A DNA stretch of 64,000 nt from Planctomycetota bacterium (GTDB lineage Bacteria > Planctomycetota > Phycisphaerae > Phycisphaerales > SM1A02): the NCBI GenBank assembly GCA_016872835.1, contig VGYX01000006.1, positions 62,001-126,000 of the forward strand, given 5' to 3'. Of this stretch, positions 31,171 to 34,607 are shown piece after piece. Numbering within the stretch: the stretch's first letter is position 1; each line of letters begins with the position of its first letter. The notes under the pieces are model-generated. The model did not search any database and had not been told where the DNA came from. It saw only the letters and a list, made by a program, of their open reading frames with translations. The position numbers and the translations under genes were made by a program.

Positions 31171-32058
31171 ATGGCGCTGGCTTCAGCGGATCCCGTTGCT
31201 GTTCCTTCCGCGCCGCATGTCGCGGCGGCCGTGACGCGCCTGGGCGTGGTGCGCTACCTGAACACGCGGCCGTTGATCGCGGGCCTGGAGCGGCTGCAGG
31301 GACTTTGCATGCGTGGTGAGGTGCCGGCGGACCTGATCGGCACGCTGGAGCGTGGCGAGACCGACGCCGCGCTCTGTTCCAGCATCGACTTCCAGCACAG
31401 CGATGCCGATCTGGTGATCCTGCCCGCGGGCCTGCTGGGCTGTGACGGTCCCACGATGACCGTGAAGATCTTCTCGCGCGTGCCGCTGGATCGGCTTGAT
31501 CGCCTGCACGCCGACGCCGACAGTCACACCAGTCGCGTGCTGGCGCAGCTGGTGCTGGGACATCGCAATGGCCGCATGCCGACGCTGGTGGATGGGCTGC
31601 CCGTGGCGCGCGAGGCCGAGGCCATGCTGCTGATCGGCGACAAGGTGGTACTGCATGCGCCCGACGCACGCGAGTTCCCGCACACGCTGGATCTGGGACA
31701 GGCGTGGAAGGAGTGGACGGGCCTGCCGTTCACGTTCGCGTGCTGGATGGCGCCGCGCCCGCGCGACGCCGCCGCGCACGCGCGCCTGCGCACCTTGGCG
31801 CAGCTGCTGGATCACCAGCGCCGCCGCAACGCGATGCGTCGCGAGCCGCTGGCCGCGATCGAGGCGCGCGCGCATGGATGGCCCGCACCCGATGCGCATC
31901 GATACCTGAACGAGCTGCTTCGTTTCGAGTGGAACGACCGGCAGCGCGAGGGACTCGAGAGCTTCTGGAAGCGCGCCTTCGACGCGGGCCTGCTGGCGCG
32001 TCATCGTTCGCTGGCCCTGCTGGAGAGCGCATGCCTCCCCGCGCACGCCTGCGCCTGA
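31171..32058 (+). CDS. mqnA: Chorismate dehydratase of the futalosine menaquinone pathway
   Basis: Converts chorismate to 3-enolpyruvylbenzoate, the first step of futalosine-dependent menaquinone synthesis. 295 residues, periplasmic-binding-protein-like fold. Family markers: LGVVRYLNTRPLIAGL, the ALCSSIDF block, LGCDGPTMTVKIFS, DSHTSRVLAQLVL, EAMLLIGDKVVLH and the DLGQAWKEWTGLPFTFACWMA block. Presence implies menaquinone respiration. Its last 28 bases overlap the start of the sigma-like gene, so the two may be coupled. No other mqn genes are in the window. Confidence 0.9.
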   Translation: MALASADPVAVPSAPHVAAAVTRLGVVRYLNTRPLIAGLERLQGLCMRGEVPADLIGTLERGETDAALCSSIDFQHSDADLVILPAGLLGCDGPTMTVKIFSRVPLDRLDRLHADADSHTSRVLAQLVLGHRNGRMPTLVDGLPVAREAEAMLLIGDKVVLHAPDAREFPHTLDLGQAWKEWTGLPFTFACWMAPRPRDAAAHARLRTLAQLLDHQRRRNAMRREPLAAIEARAHGWPAPDAHRYLNELLRFEWNDRQREGLESFWKRAFDAGLLARHRSLALLESACLPAHACA

Positions 32059-33677
32059 GCGCCGCGACGCGCCTGGATCGACAGCTGGAATTCGCGGGGG
32101 CGGATGCGCTTCGACGCCATGCGCTGCGGGCCGAGTCGCTGGTGCGCGAGATTCCGCGCGACGCGCTGGTGAGCGAGGCGTGGCTTGTGGAGCGGCTGAC
32201 CGGCGTGCGAAGCCGTGACGCCGACACCGGCGCGACGCTGGTGGGACAGGCCGTGGCGATGGACAGTGCGGCGCTTGCGCTGCGCTGGTCGGAGCGGGGG
32301 CCGTTGCGACCCGAGGACCTTCCCGGCGGTGCGATCGCGCTGGAGGAAGCCGCGCGGCGCATGGGCGTGACGGTGCGTTCACTGCAGCGATGGCGTCGGC
32401 AGGGGCTCGTGTCCGTGCGGGTGCGCTTCGGGCGGTCCGTTCGCTCGGCGATCTCGGGCGAGACGCTGGCGTGGGCGCAGCGCGAGCTCGTGGCTAAGCG
32501 GCCCACGCGCACGCGGGATCCCGCGCGACGTGAGCGACTGGTCGATGTTGCGCGATCGATCGTGGCGTCCGGCGCTTCGCTGCATGCGGCGTCACGCGCG
32601 GTGGCGAGCGCGACGGGGGCCTCCGTCTCGACCGTGCGACGCGCGTTGGTCGCGGCCGAACGCAGCGGGGCGTTGCCGCGCCTGACGCGTCGCGAGACAC
32701 CGGGGGCGCGCACGCGGTCGGCGGCATGGCGCGCCTGGCGACGTGGCGCGGGATTGGCGGAAGTGGCGGAGCCGCTGGCGCGCAGTTCGGCCGCGACCCT
32801 GCGACTCATCCGTCGCGAGCGACGCGATCGGCTTCGATCGCTCCGGCTTCAGGTGCCTGCGCTGCCGACCTTCACGCGCGCGGATGCGGCCGACACGCTG
32901 CTGGCTCCGAAGTCCGTGCGAAGCGGACTTGCGGCGCGACCATGGCCTCACGAGGCACGCGGGTTCCTGCGGCGATTTCCGCCCGGCGTGCCGGGCGCCG
33001 ATCGTGCGTGGGCGACCGATGCGCAGCGGCTTGTGGCGCTTCGATTCCTGCTGTGGCGCGTGGAGCGCGAGATCGCCGCGCTGCGAGGTTCGGATCCCGG
33101 TGCTGGCCTGGACCGGGCCGAGGCGAACCTGCGTTGGGCGGCGCGGCTGAAGGTGTCGCTTGTCGAGAACGCGCTTCCGGGTGCGCTGGGCCGGCTGCAA
33201 GCGATGCGTGCGGGTCCGCTGACCGGTCTGCCTTCCAGCGCGTTGCGTCGGGCGATCGTGGCGGCGGTTTCGGCCGCGGGCGAGGTCGTCGCCGAGGCCA
33301 TGCTGAGCGAGCACGCGATCGAGCGCCCGCGTCTGGCGGCGCTGGCCGCCGCCACCGTGGAGCGGGCCGTGGCGGGGGCGTCGTGGCTTCGTCCGGGCGC
33401 GGCAAGCCGCGAAAGTGAGGTGACCTTGCCGCCTTCACTGCGTGACTCGGTGACGCCATGGGTGGAATGGGTGCCGCTGCGCGACGATCTTGCGGAGCTG
33501 GCGGCCGCCGATCGCGGCCACGGGGCGCGCGTGCTTGAGCGTCGCTTCGGATGGGACGGCGCGCCGCCGCTTTCCGGGCAGGATGCGGCACAACGGCTCG
33601 GCATGGACGCGCGCCACGCGGGGAAGATCGCAGCAGAAGCCTTCCGAAGGCTTCGTGCAGTGCCAGTGGGCCGATGA
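32031..33677 (+). CDS. Multi-HTH DNA-binding protein with sigma-70 region-4-like C-terminus
   Basis: 548 residues, very Arg/Ala-rich, no membrane segment. A MerR/excisionase-like helix-turn-helix (IALEEAARRMGVTVRSLQRW, 102-121) is followed by two more HTH-like segments (about 183-206 and 240-262). Region 335-400 has a faint sigma region-2 flavour (ANLRWAARLK). The C-terminus (499-543: ARVLERRFGWDG, LSGQDAAQRLGMDARHAGKI, EAFRRLR) strongly resembles sigma-70 region 4, with a recognition-helix spacing that fits. It could be a divergent sigma factor, anti-sigma-like decoy or transcription regulator. The start ATG at 32031 lies inside the end of mqnA. Confidence 0.6.
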   Translation: MPPRARLRLSAATRLDRQLEFAGADALRRHALRAESLVREIPRDALVSEAWLVERLTGVRSRDADTGATLVGQAVAMDSAALALRWSERGPLRPEDLPGGAIALEEAARRMGVTVRSLQRWRRQGLVSVRVRFGRSVRSAISGETLAWAQRELVAKRPTRTRDPARRERLVDVARSIVASGASLHAASRAVASATGASVSTVRRALVAAERSGALPRLTRRETPGARTRSAAWRAWRRGAGLAEVAEPLARSSAATLRLIRRERRDRLRSLRLQVPALPTFTRADAADTLLAPKSVRSGLAARPWPHEARGFLRRFPPGVPGADRAWATDAQRLVALRFLLWRVEREIAALRGSDPGAGLDRAEANLRWAARLKVSLVENALPGALGRLQAMRAGPLTGLPSSALRRAIVAAVSAAGEVVAEAMLSEHAIERPRLAALAAATVERAVAGASWLRPGAASRESEVTLPPSLRDSVTPWVEWVPLRDDLAELAAADRGHGARVLERRFGWDGAPPLSGQDAAQRLGMDARHAGKIAAEAFRRLRAVPVGR

Positions 33678-33684
33678 GGGCCGC

Positions 33685-34137
33685 TCAGCGCTTGCTGAAC
33701 TGGAAGCGACGACGGGCGCCAGCCTGGCCGTACTTCTTGCGCTCGACCTTTCGGGCGTCGCGGGTGAGCAGGCTCTGCTCACGAAGCACGGTCTCCTGCG
33801 CGGGCTCGTAGGCGAGCACGGCGCGGGCGAGGGCGAGCTGCATGGCGCCGGCCTGACCGGTCACGCCGCCGCCCGCGCAATTGGCGCGCACATCGATCGA
33901 GCCCTTCAGGCCCGACTTCTCGAGGACCGCGAGAATGTTCTTGCGGTCACGCTCGATGACGAAGAATTCCTCGAACGGACGCTCGTTCACGAGCATCACG
34001 CCCTTGCCGGGCTTCACGCGCACGCGGCAGGTGCTGGTCTTGCGGCGGCCGGTGGCCCACCACCAACCGAAGCGGTCGGCGGGCTGCTGGGCGCGCAGGG
34101 GGCGGGCGGCGGGGGTCGAGGCGGTGAAGGTGGTCAT
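33685..34137 (-). CDS. rpsI: 30S ribosomal protein uS9
   Basis: Small-subunit head protein whose C-terminal tail reaches the P-site tRNA. 150 residues including an ~25-residue N-terminal extension before the conserved WATGRRKTSTCRVRVKPGKG. The GGGVTGQAGAMQLALARAVL block and the terminal KVERKKYGQAGARRRFQFSKR region (ending SKR) are typical. 14 bp after rplM, the usual rplM-rpsI pair. Converges with the sigma-like gene over 7 bp. Confidence 0.97.
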   Translation of the reverse strand: MTTFTASTPAARPLRAQQPADRFGWWWATGRRKTSTCRVRVKPGKGVMLVNERPFEEFFVIERDRKNILAVLEKSGLKGSIDVRANCAGGGVTGQAGAMQLALARAVLAYEPAQETVLREQSLLTRDARKVERKKYGQAGARRRFQFSKR

Positions 34138-34151
34138 GCGTCAGCTCGTGA

Positions 34152-34607
34152 TCAGCGGGTGGTTCGGCGGGACTTCACTTCCAGTGCCTTCGGCGACTGG
34201 GCGGTGTGCGGGTGCTCGGCACCTGCGAACACCTTCAGGCGGCGGCGCATCTTGCTGCCAAGCGGACCGCGGGGAAGCATGCGGATGATGGCCTGCTCGA
34301 CCATCGAGCAAGGATCCTCCTTCTGCAGGGTGCGGTAGGTGCGCACGCGCAGGCCACCGGGGTAGCCGCTCCAGCGGCGCAGCGTCTTCTGATCGGCCTT
34401 CCGACCGGTCAGCTCGACGGCGCTCGCGTTGGTCACCACGACCGCCTCGCCGCAATCGACGTTCGGCGTGTAGTCCGGGCGATGCTTGCCCATGAGGACG
34501 GTGGCGACCTGGGTGGCGAGACGGCCCAGCACCTTGCCGGAAGCGTCGACATGACGCCAAGTGAGGTGGTTGGAACCGGGCTTGATGAAGGTGGTCTGGC
34601 GAGGCAT
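34152..34607 (-). CDS. rplM: 50S ribosomal protein uL13
   Basis: Early-assembling large-subunit protein, 151 residues. WRHVDASGKVLGRLATQVA and LMGKHRPDYTPNVDCGEAVVV are the standard uL13 start; MLPRGPLGSKMRRRLKVFAGAEHPH is the signature C-terminal block. First gene of rplM-rpsI, read from a consensus-like promoter. AGGAACACGAAAC precedes the ATG. Confidence 0.97.
   Translation of the reverse strand: MPRQTTFIKPGSNHLTWRHVDASGKVLGRLATQVATVLMGKHRPDYTPNVDCGEAVVVTNASAVELTGRKADQKTLRRWSGYPGGLRVRTYRTLQKEDPCSMVEQAIIRMLPRGPLGSKMRRRLKVFAGAEHPHTAQSPKALEVKSRRTTR

Follow-up and report, generated by a model that had tools for sequence, protein, structure and literature searches.

Whether a bacterial sigma factor can lose region 2, the part that makes such a factor work, and still be kept for another task is the question raised by a gene of a planctomycete bacterium (Phycisphaerae; Phycisphaerales; SM1A02; assembly GCA_016872835.1). 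The gene lies at positions 32031..33677 of the forward strand in the window, by which we mean the whole stretch of 64,000 nucleotides that was analysed (contig VGYX01000006.1, positions 62,001 to 126,000). It encodes 548 amino acids, has zero internal stops in the translated window DNA and is the single match in the window's own genome. To our knowledge, few cases are known in which region 2 is eroded while the protein is kept throughout an order. We read the product as a former sigma factor that has probably been repurposed as a site-specific DNA-binding regulator, and set the probability of this reading at about 60%.

Two Pfam matches of the window sequence hint at such an origin, and neither is sufficient alone or amounts to proof: MerR at residues 106-130 (E=5.8e-4; 20.1 bits, below the curated cut-off of 28.2) and a weak Sigma70_r4 match at residues 500-543 (E=0.024; 14.6 bits, cut-off 24.1). 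Sigma70_r2 gave no listed Pfam match in the protein up to E=10. Among 52 family members of the order, matches at E<=0.01 were obtained to Sigma70_r4 in 33, HTH_17 in 39, HTH_23 in 31, MerR in 20 and Sigma70_r2 in 6. When a profile of 11 members of the window's genus was compared with solved structures, 13 of the 19 matches at E<=1 were sigma region 4 chains, aligned to positions 485-548 with a best E-value of 0.024; the top three matches were non-sigma, namely terminase small subunits and a regulatory protein, and fell in residues 105-256. A 52-member profile brought the sigma chains to E=3.5e-16, with the best stretch in region 4. The original prediction had taken the C-terminal tail for a descendant of sigma region 4, and both these searches and the comparisons of hidden Markov models (HMMs) described below bear this out, the HMM-HMM search placing the C-terminus with sigma and not in an unrelated helix-turn-helix (HTH) family. 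The MerR/excisionase-like HTH and two further HTHs that it had seen in the front half are likewise recovered, as Pfam matches in the window protein and its relatives and as conserved positions.

Is the eroded half a true sigma descendant? The C-terminal halves were realigned group by group, for the genus and for the related groups f1 to f4, and then compared profile to profile. The genus and f1 profiles matched at E=5.8e-31, and canonical sigma-bearing relatives were matched by f1 at 2e-17, by f2 at 1.4e-18 and by f3 and f4 together at 6.3e-20 over 215 columns, while the direct comparison of genus with canonical gave 1.3e-5 over 100 columns, most of which belong to the region 4 end. With region 2 alone, the genus aligned in register with f1 (E=1.1e-10 over 72 columns), and f1, f2 and f3 plus f4 aligned in register with canonical region 2 at 4.1e-5, 2e-6 and 6e-9, respectively. 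Ten column-shuffled canonical profiles set against five groups (50 comparisons) reached a best E-value of 0.067. Because unrelated comparisons of C-terminal with N-terminal profiles, HTH against HTH, reached 2.8e-4, single E-values near 1e-4 are untrustworthy alone. The C-terminal module, regions 2 and 4, thus has sigma-70 ancestry, established for the genus region 2 through intermediates only; the descent of the window's own region 2 appears to be transitive but consistent. Replacement of the half by an unrelated helical domain was considered and rejected on the f3 plus f4 match to canonical (6.3e-20 over 215 columns), the shuffled best being 0.067. The N-terminal profile of the genus matched its canonical counterpart at E=8.3e-37 over 292 columns, and the three-HTH half is collinear with that of the other members.

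With sigma-70 proteins of the RpoD, RpoS and SigA kind the window protein shares a C-terminal half derived from regions 1.2/2 and 4. A descendant of region 1.2/2.1 occupies residues 333-372 (33027..33146, +), as judged by alignment and by profile comparison of the whole C-terminal half; eroded region 2 follows at residues 373-449 (33147..33377, +), a linker at residues 450-489 (33378..33497, +) and eroded region 4 at residues 490-545 (33498..33665, +). The window's clade differs from these sigma factors in lacking the residues of the polymerase-clamp, -10 and -35 motifs, and in the HTH half of about 300 residues that precedes the sigma module. In Escherichia coli sigma-70 the lost residues contact polymerase, -10 DNA and -35 DNA. 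At six region 2 columns that are constant in canonical rows (26/26), the 14 genus rows match 0, 1, 0, 0, 0 and 0 times. The G of SDGN, the F of FDYARG and the F of FSTY, each 26/26 in canonical rows, are found in 0/14, and the Y of FSTY (24/26 canonical) is in no genus row. The D of FDYARG is lost in the genus and kept in 17/19 f1 and 13/15 f2 rows. In region 4.2 the recognition-helix motif R-x-R-Q has gone as well, with 0/14 genus rows matching at the R531 column and 1/14 at the Q532 column; the window reads H-A-G-K there. Taking the Pfam cut-off together with the polymerase-clamp and -10 motifs as the mark of a region 2, the window protein does not have one, and the expectation that this region would be strongly degenerate was correct, given the lost motif columns and the lack of a listed Sigma70_r2 match up to E=10.

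The same column counts speak against the proposal of a novel alternative sigma. A very divergent but working factor, which would read an unusual -10 element and grip polymerase by changed residues, is in our estimate unlikely: the genus retains 0, 0, 0, 0 and 1 of 14 at columns that are 26/26 in canonical rows (G of SDGN, F of FDYARG, F of FSTY, and R and Q of region 4.2), and region 4 was not found in 4/4 members of another group, f6, an indication that this branch can do without promoter reading.

The relatives place this erosion in a graded series. In relatives from outside the order, regions 2 and 4 of sigma-70 stand intact behind the N-terminal HTH array that the window protein also has (26 members were scored, 20 from the class and 6 from the phylum), and three of these relatives pass the Pfam cut-offs for both regions. 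Models of the two regions were built from these 26 rows, so that the scores of class and phylum members, 103-133 bits for region 2 and 71-95 bits for region 4, are those of training rows; for most class rows region 2 was judged by model scores and column counts. Inside the order, group f5 keeps regions 2 and 4, with 50-90 bits for region 2 under the canonical model and matches to RpoS/RpoD/SigA models in 6/6 members; against NCBIfam TIGR02937, TIGR02394 and TIGR02997 it scored mostly below the curated cut-offs, TIGR02937 lying above for the member shown. Group f6 keeps region 2 in part (4.6-29.9 bits, 4 members), and in all four neither the alignment nor the canonical region 4 model found a region 4. 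Region 2 then falls to at most 8.1 bits in f2-f4, to at most 2.7 bits in f1 (9/19 rows reported) and to a single reported row of 14 in the genus, at -4.7 bits. For region 4 the values were 28.9 bits in f3 (one row), 4.4-34.1 in f2, -3.0 to 14.7 in f4, -0.6 to 20.1 in f1 (17/19 reported) and -1.0 to 6.7 in the genus (12/14 reported). The counts were taken from a 91-row alignment after leaving out 13 rows, namely the second fetches L121-L127 and L139, L141 (the same gene as L045), the near-copies L003 and L147, and the incomplete L016 and L026; L031 (a copy of L003) and L058 and L059 (which matched the sigma end only) had been excluded earlier.

One f5 member, L043, combines a recognisable region 2 (50 bits) with a weak region 4 (8.2 bits) and is possibly an independent early stage of erosion. 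The canonical relatives are themselves unusual, being sigma factors that carry their own three-HTH array. Such sigma-70 proteins, with an N-terminal array of three HTH units spanning some 300 residues, are widespread, both in f5 (L046, L047, L049, L050) and outside the order (L101-L120, L142-L146, L148). Another difference from ordinary sigma-70 factors is that region 3 had zero Pfam matches in the four canonical HTH-array members checked. These factors may bring their own upstream DNA contacts.

That region 4 outscores region 2 in f1-f3 would suit a DNA-anchored cofactor whose region 4 relic holds the beta flap and helps another sigma, or supplies it with a region 4, somewhat in the manner of gp33 and gp55 of phage T4. 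In that pair, as described in the excerpt of PMC7892883, gp33 clamps the flap tip helix and gp55 carries the region 2 homology, showing that flap contact and -10 contact are separable between proteins. The parallel is limited in that the same excerpt describes gp33 as structurally unrelated to sigma region 4 and as not binding DNA by itself. The f6 members showed no region 4, and genus rows score close to noise for it; we regard such a cofactor as quite unlikely.

The N-terminal half presents the opposite picture of conservation. It opens with a conserved domain at residues 1-95 (32031..32315, +), which has no Pfam match and was recognised by comparing N-terminal halves from genus to phylum. 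HTH 1, the MerR/excisionase-like unit, spans residues 103-137 (32337..32441, +), and its R120, R122, G125 and L126 are kept in 47-49 of 49 eroded members (R120 and G125 in 49/49) and 24-26 of 26 canonical ones. HTH 2, at about residues 184-212 (32580..32666, +), retains R203 (49/49 eroded, 24/26 canonical) and corresponds to an HTH_38 match at 190-209 in relative L142. In HTH 3, at about residues 228-265 (32712..32825, +) and matched by HTH_23 in relatives L101 and L142, R258 is kept in 44/49 and R264 in 47/49 eroded members (canonical, 23/26 and 25/26). The eroded members have also gained residues: W369, in the region 1.2/2.1 descendant, is found in 41/49 and W477, in the linker, in 45/49, both being absent from canonical (0/26), f5 (0/6) and f6 (0/4) rows. 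All these counts are based on 49 eroded rows, six near-copies having been removed from 55. HTH 1 shares its weak match with MerR/excisionase-type proteins; no other MerR feature was found, and the rest of the window protein aligns with the sigma family.

A sigma-like domain employed for something other than initiation has a precedent in the alphaproteobacterial general stress response. In PhyR a receiver domain accompanies an ECF-like (extracytoplasmic function) sigma domain, and the protein is not known to initiate transcription. It is described, in the excerpts of PMC5830050 and PMC4814048, as a response regulator domain joined to a sigma factor domain that acts as an anti-sigma factor antagonist. 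By analogy, the relic could bind an anti-sigma factor and thereby free another sigma. The window protein differs from PhyR in its predicted DNA-binding HTHs and in its RpoD/RpoS-like ancestor, and no receiver domain is present among its Pfam matches. The conserved HTH positions suggest DNA binding, and the upstream neighbour that was found is mqnA, in a comparison that included no search aimed at anti-sigma genes. We hold a mimic of this kind to be improbable.

Retention of the protein across the order is complete. The family is present in 61/61 genomes of the window's order, 57 of them found in a search with the single protein and the remaining four (G045, G049, G053, G020) by the family profile; G049 and G053 were called from their best E-values alone (2.9e-79 and 2.3e-104). 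All 15 other genomes of the genus were matched by the window protein alone, some in pieces, and a scan of genome contigs with that protein alone found at least one relative. Many genomes of the class carry the family too. In a class-wide search 297/298 genomes had a match at E<=1e-5, a threshold that also lets in ordinary sigma factors, so that this is not a family count; in about a dozen the best E-value was no better than 1e-16. In a sample of the phylum, a profile built from the f5 members found matches at E<=1e-30 in 24/149 genomes, nine of the 24 lying within the class and some of the matches being partial or paralogous. Family matches crossing one in-frame stop were seen in G033, G045, G312, G133, G035 and G041; in the f6 genomes among these, G045 and G041, the sequence beyond the stop could represent what is left of the lost linker or region 4, or chance.

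Retention is accompanied by selection. The ratio of nonsynonymous to synonymous substitution rates (dN/dS) was estimated for 13 pairs, of which the genus supplied nine and f4 and f2 two apiece, with sequences shared between pairs. It was 0.04-0.33 for eroded region 1.2-2 and 0.07-0.44 for the N-terminal half; constraint on region 4 was weaker (0.09-0.48), and for the C-terminal half as a whole one pair, in which changes were few, gave a ratio as high as 0.43. Purifying selection acts on the eroded part. Motif loss and the missing region 4 of f6 could be taken to indicate a decaying gene, or a C-terminal domain with no remaining role. With dN/dS well under 1 in the eroded part, presence in 61/61 order genomes and new conserved tryptophans, decay is very improbable and can be considered largely refuted.

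A tree of N-terminal columns (86 of the 91 rows, quick search) supports the order with an SH-aLRT value of 99, f1-f4 with 98, f5 with 99 and f6 with 97; 17 rows, the window's included, were flagged for odd composition, and the tree gives no firm placement of f5 and f6 relative to the rest. Most simply, region 2 eroded once, on the branch of f1-f4, and region 4 was lost separately in f6. Should f6 be the sister group of f1-f4, region 2 may have started to erode in the ancestor that they share.

A number of observations weigh against a repurposed regulator. Region 2 of the genus showed no direct similarity to canonical region 2 in the profile comparison (E=0.3), and the link between f1 and canonical region 2 surpasses the best unrelated comparison by a factor of only about ten. 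Some region 4.2 columns without variation among canonical rows survive in part of the genus rows (R529 in 6/14, A537 in 10/14, R542 in 5/14). The dN/dS ratios are rough, given the sharing of sequences between pairs and a high dS in several (5.0 in one), with saturation in some, and purifying selection on the C-terminal module fits a divergent but working sigma too. The structure model, predicted from the full protein and one close relative, is not confident (mean pLDDT 45.4, pTM 0.28) and was too poor for a fold search; the helices that it shows coincide with the expected places of regions 1.2, 2 and 4, a pattern in regions 2 and 4 that a divergent sigma would share. DNA binding is predicted from HTH matches and from the conservation of HTH positions, and loss of initiation from the loss of sigma motifs. 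A low score with the region 2 model, finally, is not enough by itself to exclude a sigma. In the window's own genome ten frames lie above the Pfam region 2 cut-off, and the canonical model gives 71-74 bits for three of these, 30.9 for one and at most 2.3 for six. The genome therefore has at least three further sigma genes with a canonical region 2, and the six low-scoring frames are presumably other sigma groups. Since these six are Pfam-recognised, the score alone cannot separate a divergent sigma from a non-sigma, which leaves room for the divergent alternative; unlike them, however, the window protein has no Sigma70_r2 match up to E=10. As the model cannot discriminate by itself, the case for a repurposed sigma is carried by the Pfam result, the lost columns and the family history.

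How such a regulator might have arisen and how it might act can be outlined. The ancestor was a sigma-70 protein whose sigma module was preceded by an additional half of three HTH units, as in the relatives outside the order. Toward f1-f4, its C-terminal module lost the residues that in known sigma factors serve for clamping polymerase, for reading and melting the -10 element and for reading the -35 element; the conserved HTH positions stayed and the two tryptophans were gained. The N-terminal HTHs would now find the site, and the sigma relic would serve as a folded interaction module, for which a contact with the flap, an oligomer contact or another partner are candidates. The relic may still touch polymerase through region 4, the ability to open a promoter unaided presumably having been lost. 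The protein may bind -35 elements or polymerase without melting DNA, as had been suggested for it.

Directly upstream of the gene lies mqnA (31171..32058, +; PF02621, E=5.6e-38), which overlaps its start by 28 bases. The residues that follow the proposed start recur in relatives, as MPPRARL in some members of the genus and as MPRxARF more widely; as the starts of relatives were picked by script near that of the query, these shared residues are the sole support for it. The mqnA neighbour, part of the original prediction, is real. mqnA lies upstream in 41/47 order loci with longer flanks, at most 70 bases from the gene in 38 of them, and at 0/20 class loci outside the order within the stretch fetched. 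Two of the six exceptions have a PF02621 gene elsewhere; G031, G016, G282 and G041 (95-98% complete) have no PF02621 match and keep the protein, so its task is probably independent of the menaquinone pathway, and menaquinone regulation is probably not its sole role. Clustering of neighbouring open reading frames (ORFs), swamped by spurious ORFs in GC-rich DNA, established no further conserved partner upstream. The window's genome has a second PF02621 gene, G000:C4:103375-104193, which outscores the copy beside the sigma relic and which we take to be mqnD. Convergent with the sigma-relic gene are two genes at 33685-34137 (-) and 34152-34607 (-), whose products read like ribosomal proteins S9 and L13; in f1 loci, clusters of ORFs turn up again at this position.

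Among the matches listed for sigma-factor literature (planctomycete, atypical, repurposed), none described this family of HTH-array sigma factors. In our view a documented transition from sigma to probable non-sigma deserves more than routine attention. A single tree carries intact, intermediate and eroded states side by side, which makes the change of role of an initiation factor directly testable. Tentatively, and with considerable doubt, much of the order may have turned a self-anchoring sigma into a promoter-bound, non-initiating factor that still docks on polymerase. If this is true, the family would offer a natural, graded passage from sigma factor to general regulator, and its intermediate stages would still be alive in f5, f6, f3 and f4.

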